31,234 nucleotides of DNA from a virus. Location of the stretch: positions 1 to 31,234 of the IMG/VR virus record IMGVR_UViG_3300021375_002956; one strand, 5' to 3'. This document shows, piece after piece, positions 3,302 through 31,234 of this stretch. Below the pieces are notes generated by a model. That model saw only the letters and a program-made list of their open reading frames with translations, made no database searches and was not told the DNA's origin. Position numbers and translations under genes: made by a program. Position 1 is the first letter of the stretch, and every line of letters begins with the position of its first letter.

Positions 3302-6300
3302 TTAGATGAACGTCCATTTCAGCCGCAGATTGTTGATCGAGAAGTTCAAGTAATTGCCGCTGATCTGACGCGTGTAGTAGTCGCCCTGATTGACCATTCC
3401 GGTATCGGTGTTGCCCTTGAACGGAACAACTTCGATAGTCACATCGCCGGTGAACGTGTCCGGGTCTGGGCCGTCGAAGTTCGTTGTGAGCGCAGCAGAG
3501 AACGACCGCGAAGCGTAGGTGCTCTGCGCCGTGCCGGTCCACGAGGCACTTGCAAGAAGAACGCCATTCTTCTTGATGTAGATAGTCAGACCGCCGTCTT
3601 GGAGATAGTCGATGTAATATGGCTTTCCGCTCTGTGTGTTCGTCTGTCTGCCGGTCAGATAAGTGAACGAGAGATTGCCTTCCAGCAGGTAGCTGCCGTA
3701 GCCGGTGGTCTGGCCAAGTGTTCCAGAATACATGGTAGCGCCAGGATTGCCTGCCGCTGTCACAGGGCCAATACGCTTCACGAAACGCTGTAGAGCCAGC
3801 GCTTCCGGGTTGATCGTGCCACCGATCATAGCGTTACCGGAAATGCGAAGATCGCCAAGGATATCGACACCACCACCGCCGTTGCTGTCAGCGAAAACGG
3901 TCAACTGAGCGCGACCACCTGACACGGCGTTGACCTGAAAATATGCAGCGGTCTTGCCATTCAGATTGTTGATTGCGGTCTGCTGGACGTTCACGGAGGA
4001 ATTGAGCGTCGAGACGCTATTGTTCAGGCTCGCGATGGACGAGTTTGCGGTGGCGATTGCAGTCTGTGCGCTATTGATGGATGCCTGCTGAGTGGTCGCC
4101 ACTGCGCTGCCGTTGCCGGGCGAGTAGCTGCAAGGCGTCGGAGCATTTGCGAATGTCTCGCGCACTTGCGGGCGCATGAACCATGCCCAGCTATCAGACT
4201 GGTTGCTGAGCGTCCCGAATTTGCGGAGATACAAACGCGCCTTCACAGCATCGGACGGGGCTTGCCCCTTGAAGCCGACCTGCGTCCAGTTGCCCATGCT
4301 AATGCCGCCGCTAAGCGGAGTTAGGGCGCCAGACGATGGAGTTGAAACTGCACCGCCAGACGCATTCTGGAACTGAAGATAGACTTGCACCTGACAGCGA
4401 TGCGCTGCGACTTGGACCGAAACATCGTACCATTTGCTTGGCTGGATCGTGATGTCCTGCATCCAGTCGGAACTTCCCGAACTGCTGCTGTTCTGCTGAT
4501 AAATGCTTATCGCGTTCACATATTGCGGATGCCAGTCGTTGCCACCGCCGTTGATGGGAAACACGACATTCGACTGACTGTTGATGCCGGTCCACCAGCC
4601 GGAAGTGTCCACCGCAAATTCCGTGTTGGTCAGGAGATTGCCGCCGCCAGTGCTATACTGAGCAGTCAGATTTGCTTGGGTGGTAGCCGTCGATGCTGCG
4701 CTGGATGCCGTCGCGGCCGAACCAGATGCCGCGCTTGCACTGGATGATGCTTCATTGGCTTTGGTCGATGCCGTGTTTGCGGAATTGCTTGCCGATGTTG
4801 CGGATGATCCAGCGTTAGACGAATGGGTCGCGGCACTCGATGCGCTACCAGCAGCCGCGCTGGCGCTATTTGAGGCATTATTCGCCTGTGTCGCTGCCGT
4901 GTTGGCCGAGCCACTAGCCGACGAGGCTGAATTGCCTGCATTTGTGGCGCTGGTCTGGGCGTTAGACGCACTGGTCGCCGCTGCGCTCGCTGATCCGGCT
5001 GCGCTGTTGCTTTCGGTAATGTCCTCAATGCGAAGTCCGACGACACGCGCATCATGCACGGACCCGGCTTGACCGGCGTCGTTCTGAGATTGGACGAAAG
5101 GCTTGAAGCGAAGGATGTTTGCCGGAATGCCGAGATTAAACTCGAAATAGCTCCAGGTCGTGACACCGGCATTAGCCGCACGGCTATATGGGAACGAATA
5201 TGATCCGTTGGCCAATTGTCCCTGAATGCCGACGTTAACCGGATATGCAGATGATGAGCCGCAGCGCGCATAACCCGAAATGCGAAAAACGCGATCATTG
5301 GTCTGGGGTAGCGGAATGAACTCTGCACCTTCGGTGGCGTCACGCGCCTGACTACGCAGTTCCTTTGTCGTGCCTATCGAGCCGTTGGAATAACTGGTGA
5401 CGGACACCGAGCCATTCCACATGCCCGTGCTACCGTCTTCAAATGTCGGCTTTGCGACGAAATTACCGGTCGCATAGCTGCCAGCATAAAGAGCCTGCGC
5501 CGCTGAGGTCGATGCGCTGTTGCCCGCGTTCGATGCCGACGTGCTAGCCGCTGATGCGCTGTTGCTGGCGCTCGTCGCGCTGCCAGATGCGGCATTTGCG
5601 GAGTTGCTGGCGTTCGTCGCCTGTGTCGATGCAGTGTTGGCGCTGCCAGCGGCATTGTTGGCCGATGTCGACGCATTGCTTGCACTGGTCGATGCCTGAC
5701 CCGCTGATGTCGCCGCGTTGGTTGCGCTGGTCTGGGCCGATGAAGCGGACGATCCAGCAGCGGACTGACTTGCGGATGCCTGAGAAGCGCTATTGGCTGC
5801 TGCGCTTGCTGATCCGGCCGCACCCGTGCTTTCGGTGATATCCTCAATACGGATGAATGCATAATCGACCGTGACCGTGGATGACGCAGCCAAGAGCCGC
5901 AGCAAGCAGCGAATGCTGGACGCGCCAGCCGCAATCATTGCGTTGGTCGTGGATGCCGGAACAGTGCCGGTCAGTTCGACCCACTGGTTCAGCGCGGTAA
6001 AAGTATAAGTCGACTGAACTGTGCCATTGCCCATCGTGCTGCCGGTCGTATTCACGCCAATGCGGTAAAGCTGAAGCTGGGCAAAAACAGAACCGGTCTG
6101 CTGACGGACCTTTGCGGTGATGCGATAAACGCGATCCGCTTGGAGCGGCATCATTCCGATATTGCCAACGTCAATCTGGCTATTTGCAGTGACGCGCATG
6201 GATCGACCGACATCGCTGTTGTTGACGAAAGCGAAGGTCGAATTGGCGGTGATCGGGTTTAGTGCAGCCGGTAGACCGCCAAAACCCTGCTGCCAGAACT

Positions 6301-9300
6301 TGCCGTCCTGCTGGAAATCCGATGGCATTTGAGAAGCCGCGCTGAGCTTCGCGGAAACATCGGATGAGTTTGCAGCGGTCGCGCTGTTGCTGGCATCGGT
6401 CGAGGACGACGACGCGCTAGACGCGCTATTGGCCGCCGAGGTCGCGCTATTGGATGCTTCGTTGGCCTTGGTGGAAGCCGTGTTTGCGGACTGGGTTGCG
6501 CTGTTCGCGCTATTCCCCGCGTTGGTCGCGGACGTGCCTGCCGACGATGCGCTGGTTGCGGCGGCGGAAGCAGACGAGGCAGCGGCCAATTGGCTCGTAA
6601 CATCTTCGATTTTCAGAAATGCGAGCTGGATCGTGTGTGTTTCGCCCGGTTCGAGGCGCAACAGTGGTCGCAAGTAAGCGCCGCTACCCGCGATCACTGC
6701 GTCACCGGTTACGTCGATTGTTACGTTATACCACTGGTTTTGGACCGAAAGGGTCTGCAGAGTGGATGGCTGACCAATCTGACCATATGAACTGGACAGG
6801 TAAATGCCGTAGAGGCGCACGCCCGGTGCAGTGGCAGATGTTGCGCGCACCGACATGGTTAGGCGATAGGTTCGACCGGCGATCACGCTGACAGCACCCA
6901 GCGGCGCGATGTATCGATATGTGGTTGTACCGCCCATTTGAGCGACGCGACCGACATTGGCGACATCGGGATACGAGACCGCATTGGACAAAGCGCCTTG
7001 AGAGCCGGGCACACCCGTAAAAGTGTGCGACCAGAACAAGCCATCTTGCATGAAGTCGGATGGCAACAGCGATGCGGCGGTTACTTTCGCGCCATCAAAG
7101 CTGGATGAAGCTGAAACCGCCGAAGCAGCGGCCGACGATGCCGAGTTGCCCGCATTCGTTGCGCTGGTCTGGGCGTTGCTGGCACTGCCGGATGCTGCAG
7201 ACGCCGAACCACCGGCAGCAGTCGCGCTATTGGCGGCATTTGTTGCACTGGTCGAAGCCGCATTCTTCGATGCGTTGGCGTTGCTCTCGCTGGTCGCTGC
7301 ATTGCTGGCGCTGGTCGATGCTTCGCCTGCCTTGGTGGTTGCGGTGTTTGCGGAATTCGACGCCGACGTGGCCGACGTTCCAGCATTCGTCGCATTGGTC
7401 GATGCAGTGGAAGCGGAAGTTGCTGCCGCCGATGCGCTAGCCGCTGCACCATTTGCCGAAGCTAGAGCTGCTTCGCGTTCGGTAACGTCCGTGATGCGAA
7501 TTTCACCAACACGGAAAATCAGCGATCCCGCAGTCTCTGATGAGTTCAGGCGAATGCCAGCGCGAAATAGCACGACATCGGCTGGGATGGTGGTCACACC
7601 GGAGATGGTATCAAGCGAGAACTTGGCAGTTAGGACATTGACAGAACCGGTGGTCGAATAGTTACCGATAGTGCTTGATCTATAATTGGATGCTGCTGTT
7701 CCGAAGCCGGAGAGCATCGTTCCCAACGCTATGTTGAAACTAACCGCGCCGTCACTCTGCGTGATCTTGAACGAAACCGAGACTTCATAGATGCGACCGG
7801 GTTTCGGTGCGATCACGCCTTTGGTCAGGATATTATTGCCTGCACCGGCCCAATTGTTGAATTCCAACGACGGACCCATGTCGGCGTCGATCACCGCCGT
7901 TCCGGGAATGTCGGCCAAGCTGGTTGGATTGCCGGTTCGCTGGTTGGTCCAGTGCTTCGCGCCTTCATCAAAGGTCGATGGCAAAATGGGCGAAGTGACA
8001 TAGAGCGCACCGAGCGTGCTGTTATAGGTCGAGTTCGCGGACACCGCCGATGCTGCGGCAGAAGTCGCCGCGTTACCTGCTTCCGTGGCTTTTGTGCCTG
8101 CGGTCGATGCCGAGCCGCTTGCAGCCGTCGCGCTATTTCCCGCATTTGTGGCGCTGGTCGCGGCGTTGGTCGCGGAAGTTGCAGCCGCGTTCTTCGACCC
8201 TAGCGCATTGCTTTCGCTGGTTGCGGCGTTCGTCGCACTGGTCGATGCTTCACCGGCCTTAGTGGTTGCAGTATTGGCCTGAGTGGTCGCGGTCGATGCG
8301 GATTGACTTGCTTCCGTCGCTTTTGAGCTAGCCGTGGACGCCGATGTCGCTGCGGCAGTAGCCGAGTTGCCCGCGTTCGTCGCAGATGTCGCAGCGGCCG
8401 TCTGAGACGTTTTTGCTGCATTTTCCGACCCCTTAGCGTTTGTCTCGCTCGTCGCGGCATTGGTGGCGGAAGTGGATGCTTTACCAGCCTGTGTCGTGGC
8501 AGTGGTCGCGCTAGTCTGGGCAGCAGATGCGGAAGTGCCCGCGTCGGTAGCGCTGGTAGCTGCGGCGCTGGCAGAAGTGGAAGCTGCATTGGCGGAGGCA
8601 GCGGATGCTTCGCGCTCGGTCACGTCGAGCAGGCGAATTTCACCAATAACGAGAGTCAGTCCGGTTTCTGACGAGTTCAGACGAAGGCCGGGGCGGATAT
8701 ATTTGGTATTGGATGGAAGCGAGGCCATGCCAGTGCCGCCACCGATCGCGAACTTGGCAGTGAAGGTCTGGACGGTATTGTTGGTTGTGACGCTAGACGA
8801 ACCGCCCGAAGCGAATGCTGCTGACGATCCATCTGTGCCGACATAGTTTTCAGCCATGGTCGCAAGGATAGGATTGAAGCTGACCGAACCGTCGGAAGCC
8901 GTGACCTTGAGGCGAACCGTCACTTCGTAGATGCGACCCGCCGAGACAGCGACCGCGCCTTTGCTCAGGATATTCGTTCCGGCAGAGGTCCAATCGGAAA
9001 ACTGTAGCGCCTGACCGAGATCCGCATCTGTGACCTGAGTGCCTGTGGTCGTCGCTAGGGTTGCAGGTGCGCCATTGCGAACACGGGTCCAGTGCTTTGT
9101 GCCTTCCTCAAACGAGAACGGCAGCAACGGCTGATTATAGACCGTGTTGAGCAGGTCATTATATGTAGACGTGGCAGAGACGTTGCTTGCCTGTGCAGCG
9201 GTCGCGCTATTTCCTGCTTCAGTGGCCTTGGTGCTGGCGGTAGATGCCGAGCCAGATGCAGCAGTTGCGCTATTGCTGGCATTGGTCGCGTAGGTCTGGG

Positions 9301-11041
9301 CATTATTGCGGGCAGTTTCGGCCGCACCCTGAGCCGCAACGGCAGCATTTTTTGCCGTGGTCGAATTGCTGAATGCGGTTTCCGCGTCGGTCTTCGCTGT
9401 CTGTGCGGCTGTTTTGGCCGTTTCAGCAGCGGTCTTTGCAGTCTCGGCAGCGGTCTTCGCCGTGGTTGCGTTGGTCGCTGCGGTCTGGGCCTGTGACCTG
9501 GCTGTCTCCGCTGCGGTCTTTGCCGCAATGGCATCCGCTTCTGCTGCTTCTGCGTCGGCTTTTGCCTGAGCAGCATTATTGCTCGCGGTTTGAGAGGTGG
9601 TCGCTGCTGCCTTTGCCGCGTCTTCTGAGATTTTAGCCGCATTGGCCGACGCTGCTGCGGTTGCGGTGCTGCCATAGGTATCGATTAGCTCAGCAATGTC
9701 GGCGTTCGCCTCGTTGACCTTCTCCTGAATGGTCTTGGACTTGATGACCGTGCCGTCATCATCCTTGACCGCATCAAGCGCGGTGTCGGCAACGCCCTTG
9801 GCGTCATTGGCCAGCGATTGCGCGTTGTCGGCAGTCGTCTGGGCAGTCTGTGCAGCTAGAGCCGCTTCATCAGCAGCTTCCGCCAGTTCATTGACGATTG
9901 GCGAAGCATCGCTGTCCGAGTGGACGCCCCAGCACTTTTGATAGCCGTAGCTGACTTTGCAGATCGGAGCCTTTGGCGGCTCTTCTTTCCAATCCAGAAA
10001 CAGGGGAAAGGTCGAGCGATCCGCATTAAGAGTGACCGCGCTTTTAGCGGACTGATAGAACTTGCCGCACTGGTAAACGCCATTCTTGTCCGCAAAGACA
10101 TAACCACCGGCATCCCTGAACAGCTTTTGCAGCGCGTCGAAGAACTCGGTCTGGCTAGTGACATACAGGTCCGTCTCAACAGCATTGAACGCGGAGAAGT
10201 CACCGATCTTATCGGCAGACACGCCAGCAGCTTGAAGAAGCGCAGTAGCGACAGCGGGCAGGGTAGTGCCACCTGACATAGAAACGTCGGCGGTGATCTT
10301 CGGAGTAGGCGTGCCACCGAAACGGAACAAGCCTTCTGCAAAGCAAGTCGCATATTCACCCGGCTTTAGGGTTGCGGCGATCAGGTTCGCATATGAAGTG
10401 GCATTGCCCTTATACTGAGTGGCATCCAGTGGAAGACCATATTCATAAGGCTGGATCGCATAGACAGCGCCATAGCCATGAACCTGATAAACGAGATTGA
10501 CCGGATCAATCTCAACAGGCTCGACGGACTTGGGATTGCCGAAACAGCGCGGCTTTAGATTGCCCTTTGAACCAATCGGTCCTTCTGCGCCACCACTGCC
10601 CGCATATGTCTTCGATAGTATCTTGGTAGTCAGGTCAGCTTCTGGACCGAGCAAGCGAACGGTAACGATATTGCCTTCGCGCTCTAGGTTCGATGCTTTG
10701 CCTTCGCCCCATTTCTGATAGTTGGAGAAGTCAGTGCCATGCTCGCCATACCAAGCCTTGTAAGTTGCACCGTTCCAGACATAGCTACTCCACTCATGGT
10801 TTGTGAAGTCGTCAGAGCAGAAGAAGCTAATCTCGCCGCGTTCGACCTTGGGGTCATCGAGCAAGCCATCGCTTGAGAGCGTAAAGCTCAGCGAAGGCAT
10901 TGAGGTGATGCAGGGAAGCCATGCTTGATCGTTTGCAGTGGTCGCCAGTTTGTCGGCGCTCACATTAGTAAGGCGAAGGGTTTTAGGGGTCGCGCCGTTG
11001 AGAGGCGTAACTTCAAGGAGCATGTTATACACTGTAGCCAT
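3302..11041 (-). CDS. Giant modular tail tip/fibre protein
   Basis: A 2579-residue host-recognition protein. Residues 1 to about 380 are a globular hub-like region that probably docks on the tail tip. From about 382 onward come long Ala/Ser/Thr/Asn-rich coils of the phage fibre-repeat type. These alternate with six beta-type modules at about 632-812, 1012-1190, 1323-1482, 1568-1736, 1858-2010 and 2131-2300. Modules 1 and 2 are close relatives (shared H-W-T, R-I-Y-E-V, L-R-L-N-S-S-E-T, D-V-T-E-R-E-A), and modules 3-5 end in I-E-D-(V/I)-T. The size and form suggest carbohydrate-binding jelly rolls (inferred). A perfect A-E-T-A-K-T-A heptad repeat lies near 530-550. The last 270 residues resemble the C-terminal part of lambda J-type tip proteins. 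The ATG has no Shine-Dalgarno but a TAAATA box 5 nt upstream. Confidence 0.85.
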   Translation of the reverse strand: MATVYNMLLEVTPLNGATPKTLRLTNVSADKLATTANDQAWLPCITSMPSLSFTLSSDGLLDDPKVERGEISFFCSDDFTNHEWSSYVWNGATYKAWYGEHGTDFSNYQKWGEGKASNLEREGNIVTVRLLGPEADLTTKILSKTYAGSGGAEGPIGSKGNLKPRCFGNPKSVEPVEIDPVNLVYQVHGYGAVYAIQPYEYGLPLDATQYKGNATSYANLIAATLKPGEYATCFAEGLFRFGGTPTPKITADVSMSGGTTLPAVATALLQAAGVSADKIGDFSAFNAVETDLYVTSQTEFFDALQKLFRDAGGYVFADKNGVYQCGKFYQSAKSAVTLNADRSTFPLFLDWKEEPPKAPICKVSYGYQKCWGVHSDSDASPIVNELAEAADEAALAAQTAQTTADNAQSLANDAKGVADTALDAVKDDDGTVIKSKTIQEKVNEANADIAELIDTYGSTATAAASANAAKISEDAAKAAATTSQTASNNAAQAKADAEAAEADAIAAKTAAETARSQAQTAATNATTAKTAAETAKTAAETAKTAAQTAKTDAETAFSNSTTAKNAAVAAQGAAETARNNAQTYATNASNSATAASGSASTASTKATEAGNSATAAQASNVSATSTYNDLLNTVYNQPLLPFSFEEGTKHWTRVRNGAPATLATTTGTQVTDADLGQALQFSDWTSAGTNILSKGAVAVSAGRIYEVTVRLKVTASDGSVSFNPILATMAENYVGTDGSSAAFASGGSSSVTTNNTVQTFTAKFAIGGGTGMASLPSNTKYIRPGLRLNSSETGLTLVIGEIRLLDVTEREASAASANAASTSASAAATSATDAGTSASAAQTSATTATTQAGKASTSATNAATSETNAKGSENAAKTSQTAAATSATNAGNSATAAATSASTASSKATEASQSASTATTQANTATTKAGEASTSATNAATSESNALGSKNAAATSATNAATSATNAGNSATAASGSASTAGTKATEAGNAATSAAASAVSANSTYNSTLGALYVTSPILPSTFDEGAKHWTNQRTGNPTSLADIPGTAVIDADMGPSLEFNNWAGAGNNILTKGVIAPKPGRIYEVSVSFKITQSDGAVSFNIALGTMLSGFGTAASNYRSSTIGNYSTTGSVNVLTAKFSLDTISGVTTIPADVVLFRAGIRLNSSETAGSLIFRVGEIRITDVTEREAALASANGAAASASAAATSASTASTNATNAGTSATSASNSANTATTKAGEASTSASNAATSESNANASKNAASTSATNAANSATAAGGSASAASGSASNAQTSATNAGNSASSAAASAVSASSSFDGAKVTAASLLPSDFMQDGLFWSHTFTGVPGSQGALSNAVSYPDVANVGRVAQMGGTTTYRYIAPLGAVSVIAGRTYRLTMSVRATSATAPGVRLYGIYLSSSYGQIGQPSTLQTLSVQNQWYNVTIDVTGDAVIAGSGAYLRPLLRLEPGETHTIQLAFLKIEDVTSQLAAASSASAAATSASSAGTSATNAGNSANSATQSANTASTKANEASNSATSAANSASSASSSSTDASNSATAANSSDVSAKLSAASQMPSDFQQDGKFWQQGFGGLPAALNPITANSTFAFVNNSDVGRSMRVTANSQIDVGNIGMMPLQADRVYRITAKVRQQTGSVFAQLQLYRIGVNTTGSTMGNGTVQSTYTFTALNQWVELTGTVPASTTNAMIAAGASSIRCLLRLLAASSTVTVDYAFIRIEDITESTGAAGSASAAANSASQASASQSAAGSSASSAQTSATNAATSAGQASTSASNASTSANNAAGSANTASTQATNASNSANAASGSATSASNSASAASTSASNAGNSASTSAAQALYAGSYATGNFVAKPTFEDGSTGMWNGSVSVTSYSNGSIGTTKELRSQARDATEGAEFIPLPQTNDRVFRISGYARCGSSSAYPVNVGIQGQLANGSYSFPYSRAANAGVTTWSYFEFNLGIPANILRFKPFVQSQNDAGQAGSVHDARVVGLRIEDITESNSAAGSASAAATSASNAQTSATNAGNSASSASGSANTAATQANNASNSASAAAGSASSAATHSSNAGSSATSASNSANTASTKANEASSSASAASGSAATASSAASTATTQANLTAQYSTGGGNLLTNTEFAVDTSGWWTGINSQSNVVFPINGGGNDWHPQYVNAISIYQQNSSSSGSSDWMQDITIQPSKWYDVSVQVAAHRCQVQVYLQFQNASGGAVSTPSSGALTPLSGGISMGNWTQVGFKGQAPSDAVKARLYLRKFGTLSNQSDSWAWFMRPQVRETFANAPTPCSYSPGNGSAVATTQQASINSAQTAIATANSSIASLNNSVSTLNSSVNVQQTAINNLNGKTAAYFQVNAVSGGRAQLTVFADSNGGGGVDILGDLRISGNAMIGGTINPEALALQRFVKRIGPVTAAGNPGATMYSGTLGQTTGYGSYLLEGNLSFTYLTGRQTNTQSGKPYYIDYLQDGGLTIYIKKNGVLLASASWTGTAQSTYASRSFSAALTTNFDGPDPDTFTGDVTIEVVPFKGNTDTGMVNQGDYYTRQISGNYLNFSINNLRLKWTFI

Positions 11042-21957: not shown

Positions 21958-23027
21958 TTTAGGATTGAAGGGTATTTGTCCTTTAGCTGGTCCAGTGTCA
22001 GCTTTGTGCCATCCGACTTTACAAGCTGGTCTAGTTTTAGCTTGCCGTCGCGGAACAAAGCTGCGCGGGCTGGGCCTAGTATGTCGTCCTGAACTGCCGC
22101 GCTCTTAGCGGACAGCCATTGCTCATAGCGCGGTGTGCTAGCCACCTGACCGTCCATGCTCGCACGATCACCCTTGGCCAGTTCGTCCTTGTCGATACCC
22201 ATTTCCCGGAAGCTCTTTGTCACCGCAACGCTGATCGAGCGGCAGCGGATATGTCTGGGTGGGATTGGACCTTCGCCAATCGGAAAGACTTTTCCGTCGA
22301 GGCTGGCGCATCCGATGGTCGTGCGCGTGTCTAGCGTGGCCAGAAACTGCCAGCCTTTGACCACATGGCTGTTTGCCTTCCACGTCTCCTGAGCGGTGAC
22401 ATTGGAGACATGAGTAACAGCGGTGCGGACAATCGACTGAGCGGATCGACGGCTAACATCAAGGATTCCATCGCTATATTGAGCGGCTTTCGTGCCCCGG
22501 ATGCGACGGACAATCTGATCCGTCGTCTCACTCTGAGTGAGGCCCAAACGGATCGCATGTGTGACGCGATCAATGCGTCCTTGCTCCATACCTTCGGTCC
22601 AGCTTTTTAGCAGGCGACCTTCAAACGGCACTTCCTCAACAATGGCCTTCAAGCGGGCAGGGGAGGGCAGTTTCGTACCGACTTCCACCAGCAATGCGCC
22701 ATCGATCGCTGCCTTCTGGAAACCCGCTTCCGCCGCTGCAAAATCGTTTAGCTCGTCGGCCAGGCTGTCATGCAATTGCTCATAGATCGCGGCGTTGAGT
22801 GCGCGCAGCTCGTCCAGCAGGGCAAGCAAACGCTTGGTGCTTTTCGGGCCAAGATCGTATCCGCGTTCCTCTATGGAGGCGAGCCGACCAGCGATCTTCT
22901 CCAGAAGATCAGCATCAGCGCTGTTGAGCAATTTGACGATGCGGTCGGAAATGCCGTTGCCATAGCGACTGATCGCTATGGCATGGGCAATGGCGCGGTC
23001 CTGTAGGGACTGATTGACTGTGGCCAT
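21954..23027 (-). CDS. Mu gpF-like head morphogenesis protein
   Basis: A 357-residue protein of the Mu F/SPP1 gp7 family, a minor head protein bound to the portal. The signature lies at about residues 230-266: L-D-T-R-T-x-x-x-C-x-x-L-D-G-K followed by P-P-R-H-I-R-C-R-S. The N-terminal 160 residues are helical. Its ATG overlaps the portal stop as TAATG, so it is coupled to portal translation. A few copies per head are usual; it may be ejected with DNA. The 3' end overlaps the converging cargo gene by four bases. Confidence 0.88.
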   Translation of the reverse strand: MATVNQSLQDRAIAHAIAISRYGNGISDRIVKLLNSADADLLEKIAGRLASIEERGYDLGPKSTKRLLALLDELRALNAAIYEQLHDSLADELNDFAAAEAGFQKAAIDGALLVEVGTKLPSPARLKAIVEEVPFEGRLLKSWTEGMEQGRIDRVTHAIRLGLTQSETTDQIVRRIRGTKAAQYSDGILDVSRRSAQSIVRTAVTHVSNVTAQETWKANSHVVKGWQFLATLDTRTTIGCASLDGKVFPIGEGPIPPRHIRCRSISVAVTKSFREMGIDKDELAKGDRASMDGQVASTPRYEQWLSAKSAAVQDDILGPARAALFRDGKLKLDQLVKSDGTKLTLDQLKDKYPSILN

Positions 23028-24454
23028 TATAGAGCCTCAGTGCTTGGCCTGTCCGCGACCTCGACCTTCGTGGCTTCGATTTCGGCCGCAACGTCGAGTG
23101 CCGGCGACAGCACTTCGCCATCCTTGAGGCAGAGCAATAGCTGGTCATGCGTGATAGCACCGGCCTGCCATAGACCTTGAAGCGCAGAGATTGCCTGCGG
23201 CGACAAGCTCTGTGGCACGAAGTCCTTGTTGACCGAGAATGTCAGGTCCGTTTCTGCCGCTGGATCGGCCCAGCGCGCCAGCAGCTTGAGAGCGCGAAGC
23301 ATCTTGGCGGAAATCGTGCGGGCAAAGCTGGCAAGGATGGCCATTTCCGCAGCGCGGTAGATCATTTGTGTTTCGGGTGCCTCTGGTGCGGGCTTATCGG
23401 GAGCGACAATGGAATGGCCCGCGATGCGCAGTTCGTCCTTGATTTCCTTGACCGAGTTTTCGAGCGTGGCCGCTCCCTGTCCCTTGAATTCCAGATATTC
23501 AGCAACCGTGTCCTTGCTCTCAAAGAGCCACAAGCTACCGGGCGCTACCGGGAAGTCTGGAAACTGTAGCTGGCCGTTTTCATCGAGGACATAGCCGCCA
23601 TCATTGTCCTTCAACGGTGAAATGCCGCGAATGGTAGGGATGGGGGCACTCAACGTGTAATGGACGTTGGAAAGCAAACCCTGCTGGATATAAAGCTGGA
23701 GATTGAGATCCACCACATGCTGCAAAAGCGATGGCTGCGGCGTCAGCTTTTCCGACGTGCTGACCAGAACGAATGGAATTTCGCCTAATGCCTTGCCGTT
23801 GACCAATGGTGTTTGGATCGGGCCGGGAATGAATGCCTCACCATCCTTGGTCCAGATACGCACCTGATAGATGCCCTGATTGACCATCAACTCGCGGATG
23901 CGAGTGCAATCCTGTTCCATAAGTCGGACGCGGACTAGCTGGCGCTTTCCACCGACCAAGCCGGGCTTCAATTCAAGGATGCTTTCGGCGGTATAGCCTG
24001 CAATGAACGGGCGATATCCCTGCTCGAACGCATTAGCTGCGCTCAGTCCGGTAAATTCATCCCTACTGGGGTGATCGACAAGCAGACCAGTGAAATTGGT
24101 GATTAGCGTCTCGCGGATCAGCCATTCGGTCAGTTCGTTGAGGTTCAGGTAGTCGGGGGTGAGCAGTTCGCAGAGCGTGCCGATAATCTCGCTTTTCGTG
24201 CCAAGCTGATCGGGCTTGCGCTTGATGAGGCCGACCCAGCCTTGCAGCGTTTTTGATGCTGCGGGAAAGAAACGGGTTCGGAAAAGGTGCGAGTTGTATG
24301 TCGCGTCATCATCTGCGGGATTAGCAGCCGGTAGATAGGTGGACTTTTTTGCTTTTACGGCTTCTTCGCCATCTGCAAAGTCGCGGTTGCGAACGAAACG
24401 CGGGTGATGCTTAGCAATCTCAGGTGTTGCTTTGGAAATATCATCGATAGGCAC
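23027..24454 (-). CDS. Portal protein (DUF4055 type)
   Basis: A 475-residue protein that would form the dodecameric DNA entry ring. The N-terminal region (K-K-S-T-Y-L-P-A near residue 37, then Y-N-S-H-L-F-R-T-R-F-F and T-L-Q-G-W-V-G-L-I-K-R-K-P near 72-83) matches the DUF4055 portal group. Later stretches contain the long helical stem region and a Q-M-I-Y-R-A-A-E-M-A-I-L-A-S-F segment at about residue 365. The GTG at 24454 follows GAGGATTTTA, a usable Shine-Dalgarno. It is the first gene of a unit with its own TAAATA box and is coupled to the head morphogenesis gene. Confidence 0.85.
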   Translation of the reverse strand: MPIDDISKATPEIAKHHPRFVRNRDFADGEEAVKAKKSTYLPAANPADDDATYNSHLFRTRFFPAASKTLQGWVGLIKRKPDQLGTKSEIIGTLCELLTPDYLNLNELTEWLIRETLITNFTGLLVDHPSRDEFTGLSAANAFEQGYRPFIAGYTAESILELKPGLVGGKRQLVRVRLMEQDCTRIRELMVNQGIYQVRIWTKDGEAFIPGPIQTPLVNGKALGEIPFVLVSTSEKLTPQPSLLQHVVDLNLQLYIQQGLLSNVHYTLSAPIPTIRGISPLKDNDGGYVLDENGQLQFPDFPVAPGSLWLFESKDTVAEYLEFKGQGAATLENSVKEIKDELRIAGHSIVAPDKPAPEAPETQMIYRAAEMAILASFARTISAKMLRALKLLARWADPAAETDLTFSVNKDFVPQSLSPQAISALQGLWQAGAITHDQLLLCLKDGEVLSPALDVAAEIEATKVEVADRPSTEAL

Positions 24455-24980: not shown

Positions 24981-26414
24981 TCAGCGTAGTCGTTTGTATC
25001 GGTATGCGCCGCCGCCTGTCGGCTCGGGCTTTTTCTCTTGGTTCAAGTCCAGCAGTTCAGTAATGCCCCAAACTACGGCGTCCATACGGTCAGGCGACTT
25101 TTTACGACTTGCGGGACTACCCCAATCGCACATTTGCATCTCTAGTTCTTTCAGCTTGCCAACATGATGAACAACGCCGCGCTCATACTGCGCTGCTACT
25201 GGCTCAGCACGGGAAGTCTTGTTACCCGTCGTGGAGTTCGCATTGACGAACTTCAAGGGTAGATGGGGACTATGCTGAATGATGGTCGATTCCAACCAAC
25301 GTCCACCAGCGTTATCTTCCAAGATGACACGGCTTGCACCCCATTTTCGATATGCCTCAGCAACGACATCGCAGACATGGATCGGGGAGCCATGGCAGCT
25401 ATAATCGGCCAGCACATAAACCTGAGCGTCGGCACCTGAACCTGATACAGCCTGTACGGTAATGCCGTGAAGATCGTTTTTGACATCACCTTTGGTGGCA
25501 GGGTCAACAGCAATCGTAAGTCGGTCTAATTTAATGTCGCGTTCTGCCAACATAGCCAGAACGTCCTCAGGGGTCTTAACTGCATCAGGTTTAGGTTCGC
25601 GATGGCTGTTAAACATAGCCTCAACAAACAGCGCATTGCTGTTCTCGTCCGACCATTCACCTTCTAGATATCGACGACGATCACTAGCGCCCATCGCCTC
25701 CATACCTTCGATGTAGTCTTCGGACAGGTTATCAGAGTTCGCAATGGTGCGGAGTTTCTGAGATACCCATTGATGCTCACGCGGCATTGCATCGCCGTCG
25801 CTAGGATTGATGTGCAGCTTGAACGCTTTGTATTCCCAGTCGCTGTAGAAGCGCGGATTGCAGTCGAAGAACATCTTGTTCTTGAGTTGCTTTCCATCTT
25901 CCGTCTGCGCCTTCTTTCGAAGTCGCGTCATTAGTGTGGAAACCTGACTGTAGCCAAGTCCGTCCTCATTGCACTCGTTGAGCCACACTGTGTTAAATTC
26001 GTCACCAAGGACTTTCGAGGTTCGGTTTTCATCAAGGCCATTGAAGTAGATTTCACTACCATTGGGCAGAGTGACAATCATCTTGGAATAGCTAATGCCG
26101 TTCTTGGCTTCGATCTGTTCGCGCAGGCCCGGAAAGCCCTGATCGAGCACTTCGAAAAGTGTCTTGTTGAAAAGGGTCTGCTCACACGAGTTTCTGGTTA
26201 GGCGGTAGATCGCATGACGAGTGTTTCGTGCGCGATAGGCACGGAGCAACACAATGAACATGATAAGCCAGCTTTTGCCGGAACCACCACCACCGTAAAA
26301 CAGGTGGAACTTGTTGCCCGCTGTAGTGGCAAGGCGATAAGCCTCCCACTGATCTTCGTTAAATCCCTCGAAATTGGGCTTTATGCCTTTTAATTGCTTT
26401 TCTTCTCCTGCCAT
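24981..26414 (-). CDS. terL: Terminase large subunit
   Basis: A 477-residue packaging motor. Walker A G-G-G-G-S-G-K-S lies at residues 41-48. The Walker B region near residue 150 reads V-W-L-N-E-C, with Asn where Asp is usual. The nuclease half carries the expected acidic residues: D in A-V-D-P-A-T (about 300), E/D in I-L-E-D-N-A-G-G (about 370) and D in K-S-P-D-R-M-D-A-V (about 450). An in-frame TAA immediately upstream forces the ATG at 26414. It has no Shine-Dalgarno at normal distance (AAGGAGA is 26 bases away) but has a TAAATA box 4 nt upstream. Packaging partners are the small subunit at 28359-28877 and the HNH nuclease at 29364-29870. Confidence 0.93.
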   Translation of the reverse strand: MAGEEKQLKGIKPNFEGFNEDQWEAYRLATTAGNKFHLFYGGGGSGKSWLIMFIVLLRAYRARNTRHAIYRLTRNSCEQTLFNKTLFEVLDQGFPGLREQIEAKNGISYSKMIVTLPNGSEIYFNGLDENRTSKVLGDEFNTVWLNECNEDGLGYSQVSTLMTRLRKKAQTEDGKQLKNKMFFDCNPRFYSDWEYKAFKLHINPSDGDAMPREHQWVSQKLRTIANSDNLSEDYIEGMEAMGASDRRRYLEGEWSDENSNALFVEAMFNSHREPKPDAVKTPEDVLAMLAERDIKLDRLTIAVDPATKGDVKNDLHGITVQAVSGSGADAQVYVLADYSCHGSPIHVCDVVAEAYRKWGASRVILEDNAGGRWLESTIIQHSPHLPLKFVNANSTTGNKTSRAEPVAAQYERGVVHHVGKLKELEMQMCDWGSPASRKKSPDRMDAVVWGITELLDLNQEKKPEPTGGGAYRYKRLR

Positions 26415-27816: not shown

Positions 27817-28362
27817 ATGCTTGTTGGCTATGCCCGCGTATCAACTACTGACCAAGACCTGACAGTGCAGCTTGAACGGCTATCGCAGGCCGGATGCGAG
27901 AAAGTCTTTGCAGAGAAACAGTCCGGCACAACGGCTGACCGTGATGAGTTGCAGCGCTGCATAGAGTTCGTGCGTGAGGGCGATGTCCTACTCGTCACAC
28001 GGCTTGACCGCTTTGCTCGGTCGATGGTCGATCTCCACAGCCTTATCCACAGACTTATCCACAAGGGCGTCGGCTTCCGCTGCATAGATCAGGCCGGTGT
28101 CAATACCACTACATCGCACGGCAAGCTGATGCTGGGCATCCTTGGCAGCGTGGCTGAGTTTGAGACGGACCTACGCAGAGAGCGTCAACGAGAGGGGATC
28201 GCTAAGGCCAAAGCGCAGGGCGCATATAAGGGCGGGAAAGCGCGCATTGACGCTCAGAGGGTAAATGAGATGCTGGCTGATGGCGCGAACCCCAGCGCTG
28301 TAGCGAGAGCGCTGGGGATCAGTAGGCAATCGGTTTATCGGCTCATGCAGCCCAGCGGTTAA
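27817..28362 (+). CDS. Serine recombinase (resolvase/invertase family)
   Basis: A 181-residue small serine recombinase. The catalytic set is intact: R7, S9 (Y-A-R-V-S), R42, D64, R65 and R68 (R-L-D-R-F-A-R-S). The long E helix follows, and a C-terminal helix-turn-helix lies at about 155-177 (A-N-P-S-A-V-A-R-A-L-G-I-S-R-Q-S-V-Y-R). Length matches Tn3 resolvases and Hin/Gin invertases. The ATG at 27817 has AAGG 9 bases upstream. No transposase or invertible segment is visible, so resolution of phage or plasmid multimers, or a relic of an inserted element, are both possible. Its stop shares TTAA with the converging small terminase gene. Confidence 0.9.
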   Translation: MLVGYARVSTTDQDLTVQLERLSQAGCEKVFAEKQSGTTADRDELQRCIEFVREGDVLLVTRLDRFARSMVDLHSLIHRLIHKGVGFRCIDQAGVNTTTSHGKLMLGILGSVAEFETDLRRERQREGIAKAKAQGAYKGGKARIDAQRVNEMLADGANPSAVARALGISRQSVYRLMQPSG

Positions 28363-28877
28363 ACGCCGTCACCACCTGGCCCTTCGATGATCTGCATGTC
28401 GATGATGACGGGTTCGTGGTGGATAACGTCAATCTGCTGCTTTTCTGCAAAGCGACGGTTTAGCTTGCCCAGCCTGTAACGCAGATGCCCAACGCGGGCT
28501 TCGTCGCGCTTAAAATCGCCTGTGCTGCCGATGCCGCCGCACAAGATGCTGTCAGCCATGTCGTCCATCGTACGCGCATGGAACTGGTATGCCACATCCA
28601 CCATCGACAATAGTTCAGGGTCTTCTCGCTGCCAGCGGTTGAATGTGCTGTAACCGGGTAGGTGATCGTCCTGACATATGTTGATCAGGGATTCCCCATT
28701 CGCAATGCGGTCTAGGATTTCCTCAACAACTTCATCCGTGCGCTTCGTGGGCTGACCGGCTCGTGGCCGTGTCGCTGCCTTTACAGCTTGTGCGACAGGG
28801 TGCGCCAATGCCTGCTGTTGCTGCACTACGGTTGCGAGGCCAGTATTAGGGTGTGATTGCTTGGTATTTTTCGCCAT
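28359..28877 (-). CDS. terS: Terminase small subunit
   Basis: A 172-residue DNA-recognition subunit of the packaging enzyme. Residues 38-100 match the helix-turn-helix part of small terminases: R-x-G-Q-P-T-K-R-T-D-E-V, then I-L-D-R-I-A-N-G-E-S-L-x-x-I-C, then Y-S-T-F-N-R-W. A helical oligomerisation region follows, with R-D-E-A-R-V-G-H-L-R-Y-R-L-G-K-L at about 126-141. It is separated from the large subunit by about 1.9 kb of accessory DNA, whereas the two are usually adjacent. The ATG at 28877 has no proper Shine-Dalgarno and a TAAATA box 5 nt upstream. Confidence 0.85.
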   Translation of the reverse strand: MAKNTKQSHPNTGLATVVQQQQALAHPVAQAVKAATRPRAGQPTKRTDEVVEEILDRIANGESLINICQDDHLPGYSTFNRWQREDPELLSMVDVAYQFHARTMDDMADSILCGGIGSTGDFKRDEARVGHLRYRLGKLNRRFAEKQQIDVIHHEPVIIDMQIIEGPGGDGV

Positions 28878-28882
28878 GCACC

Positions 28883-28888
28883 TATTTA
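28883..28888 (-). promoter_or_regulatory. TAAATA box 12 (small terminase, leaderless spacing)
   Basis: Minus-strand TAAATA preceded by A. Its TAA is also the stop codon of the Ntn hydrolase gene. Exactly 5 nt separate it from the ATG at 28877. Confidence 0.55.
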
Positions 28889-29344
28889 TGGCTTTGGCGT
28901 GTCGGACTTATCTTTAGCTTTAACCGTGACTGACCTGATCGTGCCGCTAGACCAGACGTCACGCTTACAAGCTGCCTTAACTGCCTCTTTTGGAGTTGCG
29001 CCTAAATCCATTGCGGTTATCGCGTATTGCATTCCTGAACCTGTCGTATATGGGGCTGGCATCTTCATTGTTCTTAGTAAATGGTCGAACACTAGAACGG
29101 TCTTGCTCCCATCAATCACTACTGCTGAGAAGTCCTCACTTAACGTGGGTAGTTCATCTAAGTTCATGCCATTATCGGGCCACCACTGGAACTGAAAGCC
29201 ACTTGCTAGGCATCCTGCAAACCCGAACGCTCTTCCGTCTTTTAATCGGAATACATTCTTGGCGTTCGTATCCTCGATTGTATCGCCGCATGTTACCTGT
29301 CCATCTGCCGCGATAGTCGTTCCGTCTGTTGCAAGTGTCGTCAT
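28886..29344 (-). CDS. HslV-like Ntn hydrolase (proteasome-type peptidase)
   Basis: A 152-residue protein closely patterned on bacterial HslV. Thr2 would become the N-terminal nucleophile after removal of Met1. I-A-A-D-G-Q-V-T-x-G-x-T lies at 11-22, N-A-K-x-V-x-R-L at 27-34 with Lys29 as the likely catalytic lysine, G-F-A-G at 41-44 and G-S-G at 102-104, followed by a helix with A-x-x-A-x-x-L-G-A. No HslU-type ATPase is in the window. The ATG at 29344 has AAGGAG 11 bases upstream, partly within a GGAG-AAAA-CTCC hairpin. It is adjacent to HNH and small terminase genes, so a role in head maturation or host take-over is inferred. Confidence 0.8.
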   Translation of the reverse strand: MTTLATDGTTIAADGQVTCGDTIEDTNAKNVFRLKDGRAFGFAGCLASGFQFQWWPDNGMNLDELPTLSEDFSAVVIDGSKTVLVFDHLLRTMKMPAPYTTGSGMQYAITAMDLGATPKEAVKAACKRDVWSSGTIRSVTVKAKDKSDTPKP

Positions 29345-29363
29345 GGGAGTTTTCTCCTTCTTG

Positions 29364-29870
29364 TTATCTGCCTAGTCGCTTTGCCAGCAGTCGCATCTTT
29401 TGGGCTATCTCGCTGCAATCTGTCTCGCGTTCGACAGTTGAGTGGTGCCGGTTGCAATTGCATGATTTGCAGCTTGTAACGAGATTGTCAGACGAGTTAT
29501 CGGTGCGGTCCCAATCTACATGATCGACTTCAACCTGCTTCCATGTCAGTGCTTTGTTGCACCAATGGCATGCTTGATCGCCTGAGCCATATTTGTCGTA
29601 AGCAAGCAGGCGATGTTCTGTGATTAAGCCGTTGACGCTCGATAGAGGATGGTCAGGCGCATAGCCGACGCGGTATCCGTTTCTATCAACGCTGTATTTG
29701 TTCGGGACTACGATAGGCTCTTTTAGGCCCGCAAGCACTCGATCCCTGCGTTGCTGTGTGACATATCGGGCATGACAGGCATGGCACCTTGGCTTCGTCC
29801 TGAGTGATCGGATGCCGAGATTGTTGCATCCCTCGGTTGTGCATGTGCTGTAGGTTCGTGGTGCTTTCAT
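29364..29870 (-). CDS. HNH endonuclease of the packaging module
   Basis: A 168-residue zinc-dependent nuclease. Cys10, Cys15, Cys29 and Cys32 could hold a first zinc ribbon. The HNH core has C101-x2-C104, D116-H117, N129 and C134-x2-C137 with nearby His142-His143. Such nucleases beside terminase genes take part in cos cleavage and packaging in HK97-type phages; homing is the other option. The ATG at 29870 lacks a Shine-Dalgarno but has a one-mismatch box TAACTA (29875-29880) 4 nt upstream, the same spacing as for the large terminase gene. Confidence 0.85.
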   Translation of the reverse strand: MKAPRTYSTCTTEGCNNLGIRSLRTKPRCHACHARYVTQQRRDRVLAGLKEPIVVPNKYSVDRNGYRVGYAPDHPLSSVNGLITEHRLLAYDKYGSGDQACHWCNKALTWKQVEVDHVDWDRTDNSSDNLVTSCKSCNCNRHHSTVERETDCSEIAQKMRLLAKRLGR

Positions 29871-29971: not shown

Positions 29972-31234
29972 TTATAAGTGAGTTAGCATCGTGTCCGTAG
30001 TTGAATAGCTGATATTGAACTTATGTCGATTGTTGAGGATGCTGATGACGTCCTCGCTCGATGCAAAGCGCCCAAGTGACTTGACGAACGCCTTAACAGT
30101 GCCGCTCTGCCATGTATTGATTTTCGCTGAATCGCTCATGCTGTTCTGTTTTGTGAAGTTGTCAAAGATGGATTGCCACGGCTTCCATGTGTTCTGGTCG
30201 ATAGAATGGACAGTCGTTAATTGGGAAACTGGTACATCCCTATTATGCAGTGTCGCAATCAAATCGTGCGCTAGCTTTGGCGAGGTTTTGTAGAAGAGGC
30301 TATCGTCCCAATTGTCTGTCCAGCCATAACCATCTAGTACGACGCAATGACAATGCCCTGCTGCTTCGAGGAGGGAGAAGCCATAGGACTCGCTTTTGCT
30401 CGGCATATAGAACACCTTGGACGACCTGATGAAGTCGACCTTTTCCTGACCGGTAATGCCTCCTCTTACATCATGCTGGGCATTGATTTTGTCTAGTGCG
30501 GCTTGCCACTTCTCCACACTGTTTGCGGCGGTCATGACCTTGATAGGTAGATTGACCTGTCCAGCAACCCGTAGGAACTCCTTGTAGTTCTTTCTGTCTT
30601 CCCATCTGCCGATGAAGAGTAAACCTGACTTTTTGCCTTCATAGGCTTTGAGCAGTTCGCGTTCAGGCATTGGCATGGGAAGCGTGATCGCATTGCATTG
30701 TGCTGCCCCTAGCTCTTGCTTGTTACGATCCGTCTGAGTGCCGATAATAAGGTGATCGGCTCTTATTAGTGCTGAAAAGAAGACGTCGAACGTCTGATTG
30801 AAAACGCCTTTGAAGCCTTCATTCCTGAATACCAAGTTCTCATTATGGGTATAGAATACGGTTGGGATATGTTGTGATAGATCAAGGCCATACACGCCAA
30901 GCAGTGCTTCTGGCGTATTGAGGACGATCAAGTCGTATAGATTGCTTTGGAAGGCTTTCATTGTTGCATTGCGGAAGTTGGTTGCTCTCTCCAAGGAGTA
31001 GCTGTCCTTGAAAGCGAAAGCTGCTCTATGGTCTTTCAGGGATTGTGGGTTGTCCGGCGTGATCGTGAGGCCGTTATGCTTGAAAAACGCATTGCGGGGT
31101 TCATTGTCGAGGATCAAATCGACCACGCAATCATTACTCTCTGCCATTTCGCAGAAGCCCTTTGCGAATTGGCCAATTCCGCCGTGGGGGATGAGGTGCT
31201 GATCGCTAATGAGGAAGGCAACGCGTCTTTTCAT
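29972..31234 (-). CDS. GT4-type (GT-B fold) glycosyltransferase
   Basis: A 420-residue enzyme that would transfer a sugar from a nucleotide-sugar donor. G-G-I-G lies at 18-21 in the N-terminal domain and F-I-G-R-W-E-D-R-K-N at 207-216 in the donor domain. The E-x7-E motif spans E282 to E290 (S-E-S-Y-G-F-S-L-L-E). There is no membrane segment. The ATG is the last base triplet of the window, so upstream signals are unseen and a longer N-terminus is possible. Targets may be modified phage DNA, virion proteins or host surface sugars; the sequence does not decide. The gene looks AT-richer than the structural genes, which suggests separate origin. Confidence 0.85.
   Translation of the reverse strand: MKRRVAFLISDQHLIPHGGIGQFAKGFCEMAESNDCVVDLILDNEPRNAFFKHNGLTITPDNPQSLKDHRAAFAFKDSYSLERATNFRNATMKAFQSNLYDLIVLNTPEALLGVYGLDLSQHIPTVFYTHNENLVFRNEGFKGVFNQTFDVFFSALIRADHLIIGTQTDRNKQELGAAQCNAITLPMPMPERELLKAYEGKKSGLLFIGRWEDRKNYKEFLRVAGQVNLPIKVMTAANSVEKWQAALDKINAQHDVRGGITGQEKVDFIRSSKVFYMPSKSESYGFSLLEAAGHCHCVVLDGYGWTDNWDDSLFYKTSPKLAHDLIATLHNRDVPVSQLTTVHSIDQNTWKPWQSIFDNFTKQNSMSDSAKINTWQSGTVKAFVKSLGRFASSEDVISILNNRHKFNISYSTTDTMLTHL

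Follow-up and report, generated by a model that had tools for sequence, protein, structure and literature searches.

Within the window, by which we mean the whole 31,234-nucleotide stretch analysed here (IMG/VR virus record IMGVR_UViG_3300021375_002956), we find an intact open reading frame at 28886-29344 on the minus strand, encoding a 152-residue protein that begins MTT and that we assign to the PPH family of proteasome-like phage proteins. The gene stands between an HNH endonuclease gene and the gene for the small terminase subunit (TerS), as a preliminary description of this DNA had stated, and genes for the large terminase subunit (TerL) and the portal protein lie further along the same strand. 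The main features of the region are as follows:

29972..31234, minus strand: glycosyltransferase-like gene at the contig end, within the accessory stretch that holds PPH (PF00534, E=1.2e-7)
29364..29870, minus strand: HNH endonuclease, 19 bp upstream of PPH (PHROG 9443, E=5.9e-21)
29354..29360, minus strand: GAAGGAG, a putative Shine-Dalgarno-like site ahead of the PPH ATG, read from the sequence
28886..29344, minus strand: PPH-type proteasome-like protein (Ntn-hydrolase fold), 152 aa
28883..28889, minus strand: ATAAATA, a late-promoter-like box ahead of TerS, lying over the PPH stop codon (28888-28886) and at the edge of homology with the sibling contig L129 (from sequence and motif count)
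28359..28877, minus strand: Sf6-type TerS, 8 bp downstream of PPH (PF20901, E=4.3e-15; PHROG 1482)
27817-28362, plus strand: small serine recombinase between TerS and TerL (PHROG 125, DNA invertase)
24981..26414, minus strand: TerL (PF04466/PF17289; PHROG 979)
23027..24454, minus strand: portal protein, DUF4055 (PF13264; matches phage portal genes)

PADLOC returned no match for the PPH protein that would point to a role in defence, and the neighbouring HNH gene drew nothing beyond weak matches to ZorE-type HNH. Recombinase-like genes between TerS and TerL are also present in six other loci (L129, L131, L132, L133, L134 and L103, located by tblastn or from ORF starts). Elsewhere in the window, a 2579-residue protein (3302-11041, minus strand) contains long Ala/Ser/Thr-rich repeat runs separating repeated modules, and is probably a tail fibre or spike.

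Family identity and predicted fold

The 152-residue protein matches PHROG 1040 ('peptidase HslV family') across residues 1-148 (E=2.4e-33) and, marginally past its cut-off, the Pfam Proteasome family (PF00227, E=5.7e-5). Our equation of PHROG 1040 with PPH is drawn from shared features, and no database states it. PPH was named in 2021 by Fuchs, Alva and Lupas from Caudovirales and prophages; the parts of their paper used here (PMC8665760) define it by a length of ~140 residues and by the lack of helix H2 and of a propeptide, present it as the first true proteasome-like family from viruses, of function not known, and report neither an AAA+ partner nor a telling genomic context. In the literature searched we found no functional study of a phage PPH: the main text of the rV5 paper (PMC3606486) has no mention of proteasome, HslV, protease or peptidase, and the sections consulted of two further papers (PMC7823757 and PMC8953757) merely annotate such genes. 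By tblastn, 429 of 50,697 phage records match at E<=1, every match below 60% identity and 347 of them spanning 80% of the query or more; the nearest kin of the window protein are ~46% identical to it.

The first alignment (A1, 9 rows) was too divergent for scans, and smaller alignments (A2 and A3) were used; with the 8-row A3, AF2 gave a model of the window protein with mean pLDDT 91.4 and pTM 0.84. The model has one main helix (46-57) and a 3-residue turn before the strand at 73-77, and helix H2 is missing. Foldseek against the PDB places HslV first (3ty6, E=6.9e-9) and BPH at rank 4 (5ovs, E=5.9e-8), VIA-align superposes the model on E. coli HslV (4g4e) with Z 17.9 at 2.7 A over 140 residues (range 2-144 against 1-174), and the BFVD matches are phage proteins, for example from Aeromonas, Caulobacter and Vibrio phages. 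The profile matches, the model and the structural matches together bear out the earlier suggestion of a proteasome-fold protein with an N-terminal threonine, and the structure prediction that had been proposed as a check yields a confident proteasome-beta fold. With its profile match, its 152 residues with Met directly before Thr and its beta core lacking H2, the window protein fits all testable PPH features except the catalytic lysine, and is not a true HslV; moreover, it has no C-terminal extension, which argues against RPC.

That HslV is the best structural match raises the question of whether the protein replaces host HslV or docks on host HslU, which would supply the ATPase, a pairing that had been proposed at the outset. 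We regard this as highly improbable. In the model, the stretch from the oxyanion glycine to the next sheet is ~20 residues shorter than in HslV and forms one main helix, such that the helix layer carrying H2 is reduced, and PPH as characterised by Fuchs et al. (PMC8665760) lacks H2, with no AAA+ partner found. The statement in the preliminary description that no ATPase partner is present agrees with the record at hand, in that no HslU/Clp-type AAA_2 domain is found in the window record or in three related records, all of which may be fragments.

Two side observations concern gene models in relatives. PPH forms the N-terminal part of proteins of ~270-304 residues with an extra C-terminal region in five large-phage loci (L002:6001-6915, L006:6001-6867, L016:1673-2548, L033:6001-6876 and L046:4016-4822). 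In Caulobacter phage CcrColossus (L018:6001-6426), the annotated Ntn-hydrolase start falls 30 bases late in a frame that opens MTT at 6001, so that the nucleophile is probably absent from the protein as publicly annotated.

An asparagine at the position of the catalytic lysine

Counts at the active site refer to 107 unique PPHs (127 in total, window included) aligned with E. coli HslV. Relatives were fetched with conserved-peptide patterns that included MTT[IL]A, and the near-invariance of Thr2 is therefore partly a product of selection; among 17 named phage records retrieved with tblastn, which involved no such pattern, 16 proteins start MTT and one MST. The codons of the window gene, all on the minus strand, are:

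29339..29341: Thr2, the mature Thr1 nucleophile position (T in 105/107, one Ser and one truncated row; model residue 2 aligns with HslV residue 1)
29303..29305: Asp14, equivalent to Asp17 (D 107/107)
29258..29260: Lys29, aligned with the non-catalytic Lys32 of HslV and not conserved (K 12/107)
29255..29257: Asn30, at the catalytic Lys33 position (K 103/107)
29213..29215: Gly44, equivalent to the oxyanion Gly47 (G 107/107)
29036..29038: Ser103, equivalent to Ser129 (S 101/107, T 5, N 1)
28958..28960: Asp129, equivalent to Asp166 (D 102/107, N 2, C 2, S 1)
28949..28951: Ser132, equivalent to Ser169 (S or T 107/107)

Four rows lack lysine in the Lys33 column, namely the window (Asn30) and L007, L009 and L074, the latter three having a lysine of their own 1-2 residues off in the alignment. 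Asn30 is placed at Lys33 by five routes (phmmer, BLASTP, MAFFT, residue spacing and a profile of the family run against PDB chains), and the BLASTP alignment of the window protein with E. coli HslV is ungapped from Asp17 to Lys33. The Asp17-Gly47 distance is 30 in 36 unique sequences, and at this spacing the residue at Asp+16 is lysine in all 35 sequences besides the window, which has asparagine. Compared by secondary-structure boundaries rather than coordinates, the model of the L100 PPH, which carries Lys30, agrees with the window model over residues 10-57 (strands 10-13, 17-19, 22-25, 31-33 and 39-43, helix 46-57); because these boundaries agree, window residue 30 is in register with Lys30 of L100, with no sign of a bulge.

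The preliminary description had counted Lys29 among five retained motifs and on that basis thought an active peptidase plausible. Four of the motifs stand (Thr2, D14-G15-Q16, G41-F-A-G44 and G102-S-G104), while Lys29, the one that matters most for the mechanism, is a register error for HslV Lys32, and with Asn30 as the aligned residue the argument for activity is not supported. Loss of Lys29 in close homologues, which had been named as evidence against the claim, is what we find: lysine is present there in one of seven relatives in A3 and in the 12 of 107 overall, window included. A shift of one residue that would make Lys29 the catalytic lysine was considered, since the Asp-to-Lys distance is likewise 15 in 12 of the 107 sequences; it was rejected, as those 12 have a Lys-to-Gly47 distance of 13 or 14, never 15.

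The same observations bear on the possibility that the window protein is an active stand-alone peptidase in which Lys29, the free Thr2 amine or water substitutes for Lys33. Every other catalytic-site residue is retained, Lys29 is adjacent, and a terminal amine serves as base in some Ntn hydrolases. However, neither the spacing of the 12 sequences, nor the 35 relatives with lysine at the Asn30 position, nor the lack of conservation at column 29, nor the common register of the L100 and window models favours such a substitution, and we consider it unlikely. In yeast beta5 with free Thr1, K33A loses ~83% of activity and K33R has none in the tabulated values of PMC4792962; by analogy, the fraction retained in K33A is a counterpoint to a complete loss of activity in the window protein.

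An alternative explanation is that Asn30 is an error of sequencing or assembly and that the phage carries an ordinary active PPH. The sequence of the window comes from one assembled contig, every other unique PPH in the set examined has lysine at this position or 1-2 residues away, and an error could explain the asparagine; a single-protein scan of viral contigs gave no near copy of the gene in which to check the codon. The reading frame is otherwise clean, and we judge an error to be distinctly unlikely. As the catalytic Lys33 position is occupied by Asn30, activity of the window PPH appears doubtful, and that of its relatives likely. Weak or no hydrolysis would be expected of the window protein, subject to the single contig and to amine-assisted chemistry.

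Packaging neighbourhood and the slot upstream of TerS

Proximity to packaging genes recurs in many relatives. On records of 35-70 kb, 20 of 32 PPH clusters (defined at 85% identity) have a gene for TerS, TerL or portal no more than 3 kb away, against ~22% expected under random placement (binomial P 7e-7, with shared ancestry ignored); for three others the distance is 3.6-4.2 kb, and around the remaining nine no gene of this kind was found. Neighbour labels were taken from iterated HMMs, scanned representatives and cluster membership, and were partly assigned by hand, and 'head-tail adaptor' proteins of PHROG 332/449 were counted as portal in this context count. The PPH gene overlaps a TerS, TerL or portal gene by 1-4 nt in 10 of 127 loci (L012, L025, L026, L027, L071, L100, L114, L115, L120 and L127, with L027 and L127 encoding the same protein). 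On records above 70 kb, one cluster in ten is next to a terminase (Caulobacter phage J4), while phoH, helicase or other genes are the neighbours of others. An association with the packaging genes is therefore characteristic of mid-sized phages; the link is positional, and a packaging function is not implied. A search for the order HNH-hydrolase-small terminase in other phages, suggested earlier, gave no support for it: the HNH family of the window has no homolog among the ORFs of loci L002-L098, a result that applies to this HNH family.

A sibling contig, L129 (35,938 bp), was found with a TerL query and is close to the window in TerL (98% amino acid identity), TerS (96.5%), portal (95%) and serine recombinase (92%); its DNA also matches the window throughout the region of the major head protein and the scaffold. 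DNA homology stops at window position 28889, at the edge of the PPH stop codon. The PPH profile has no match in this record, which may be a fragment, nor in those of five other TerL relatives (L130-L134), while the same profile finds PPH in both control records, L100 and L103 (2 of 8 records searched, most of them fragments). L129 holds instead, in opposite orientation, a gene with an AbiJ N-terminal domain (L129:1697-2761, minus strand; PF18863, E=2.5e-7, just under its cut-off), and since this AbiJ-like gene occupies the same position, the slot is a variable accessory one. GC3 is 0.477 in PPH, against 0.613 in TerS, 0.544 in TerL, 0.634 in the portal gene and 0.629 in the major head protein gene. 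A tree built from 76 PPHs makes the window protein sister to that of L100 (95/86), but the gene orders differ, being HNH-PPH-TerS in the window, TerL-PPH-portal in L100 and TerS-recombinase-PPH-TerL in L103. PPH is accessory here, the record of the sister phage being without the gene.

Processing of head proteins had been put forward as one role for the hydrolase, and a head- or packaging-specific protease, acting in prohead maturation or scaffold removal, would suit a gene that stands beside TerS, TerL and portal here, that is near such genes in most clusters on 35-70 kb records and that overlaps one of them by 1-4 nt in 10 of 127 loci; in addition, no recognised prohead protease was found among the window proteins scanned, in a scan that was not exhaustive. 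The proposal is nevertheless weakened by L129, which has the same TerS, TerL and portal genes and matching head genes and lacks PPH, with the reservation that its record may be incomplete. Moreover, L117 has a head maturation protease (PHROG 530) directly after PPH, the association with packaging genes falls to one in ten on the longer records, and Lys33 is lost in the window copy. A head protease therefore seems to us very unlikely.

The box at the PPH stop codon belongs to a series. TAAATA occurs 12 times in the window, always on the late (minus) strand and never on the other, with starts at 28888, 26424, 24536, 21311, 20580, 19475, 17959, 16908, 16067, 12197, 11052 and 2948. Eleven of the 12 are intergenic, against 0.55 expected, a number reached in none of 1000 simulations, and the twelfth is the one over the PPH stop codon; this box, ATAAATA at 28889-28883, lies 5 nt before the TerS ATG. 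The frequency of the box is far above chance, and the earlier claim that the stop codon forms part of a promoter-like box ahead of the small terminase is upheld. The usual form in the window is [CA]TAAATA, and several boxes lie 4-5 nt ahead of an ATG. The L100 record (45,212 bp, 60.6% GC) has 13 TAAATA, all on the late strand, and the pattern TAAATAnnnGCATG ahead of TerS is common to the window, L129, L131-L134 and L100. The T4 late promoter is TATAAATA. From its sequence and distribution, the TAAATA box is likely a late promoter, and if it acts like that of T4, the spacing of 4-5 nt to the ATG suggests T4-like late promoters and leaderless mRNAs. Sigma-70 region 2 or 4 domains that might read the box (PF04542, PF04545) gave no match in five records.

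Assignment of the gene to the packaging module holds for its position, which recurs in many relatives, but a transcript begun at the TerS box would not include it. The TerS box is downstream of PPH and no box belonging to PPH itself occurs within 130 nt, so expression of PPH from that transcript is improbable.

Proposed role and comparison with known systems

We propose, with a probability of roughly 60%, that the gene is accessory PPH-family cargo occupying a variable slot immediately before the TerS promoter, and that this Lys-to-Asn copy, with hydrolysis strongly reduced or absent, is most likely non-catalytic or degenerating. The protein would fold as a proteasome-beta-like Ntn-hydrolase unit without propeptide, and host methionine aminopeptidase would expose Thr2. 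In active relatives, a peptide or amide bond would undergo attack by Thr1, Lys33 serving as base and Asp17 in support, if they behave as their family suggests; the window copy, with asparagine at the lysine position, could still assemble or bind a target. A counterpoint to a degenerate copy is the retention of T2, D14, G44, S103, D129 and S132, and since these other hydrolase residues are kept, the reading frame is intact and the ribosome-binding site is good, selection for some function is likely. One broader hypothesis, decidedly speculative at this stage, treats PPHs as mobile late genes that have entered the TerS-TerL-portal cluster again and again, often overlapping its genes by 1-4 nt, because their Ntn-fold product has a binding or regulatory action on the packaging motor or on late assembly; the window copy would then be a naturally occurring pseudo-enzyme, retaining this role in the absence of the catalytic lysine.

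The family has been known since 2021, and the window copy is a new, probably catalytically impaired member of it, carried as cargo. Two handles on PPH function emerge: the strong enrichment of PPH beside packaging genes, in several slots, in 35-70 kb phages, and a natural member that lacks the catalytic lysine, paired with an almost identical sibling phage that has no copy of the gene. In combination they make it testable whether catalysis, or PPH at all, matters for phage growth. Additionally, the box over the PPH stop points to a late-promoter type in this phage group; we found no description of TAAATA as a phage late promoter in the literature searched.

Compared with other PPHs (PHROG 1040), the window protein shares the ~140-residue length class, the phage host, one helix instead of H1-H2, the Met-Thr start without propeptide and the Thr1/Asp17/Gly47/Ser129/Asp166/Ser169 positions, and differs in the asparagine at Lys33 and in its slot just upstream of an Sf6-type TerS. 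With HslV (ClpQ) it shares the fold, as superposed on 4g4e, and the N-terminal motifs D-G-Q and G-F-A-G; unlike HslV, it has 152 rather than 176 residues, lacks H2 (of the H1-H2 layer that meets HslU) and Lys33, and shows no HslU gene in its record, which may be a fragment. Its RD..S/T-G motif is one that we take to be closer to proteasome beta than to HslV. BPH likewise has a group I proteasome-like fold without known ATPase, according to the part of PMC8665760 used here, and is the 5ovs match noted above, but its subunit is longer (186 residues in 5ovs_J) and it is not a phage family in the table of that paper. Judged as a Thr-Lys-Asp peptidase, the window protein has Thr1 and Asp17 and lacks the Lys33 general base, a combination of Thr1 and Asp17 without Lys33 that it shares with the yeast 20S beta5 mutants K33A and K33R, as given in PMC4792962; those mutants, however, are engineered, and carry alanine or arginine in place of the asparagine of the window.
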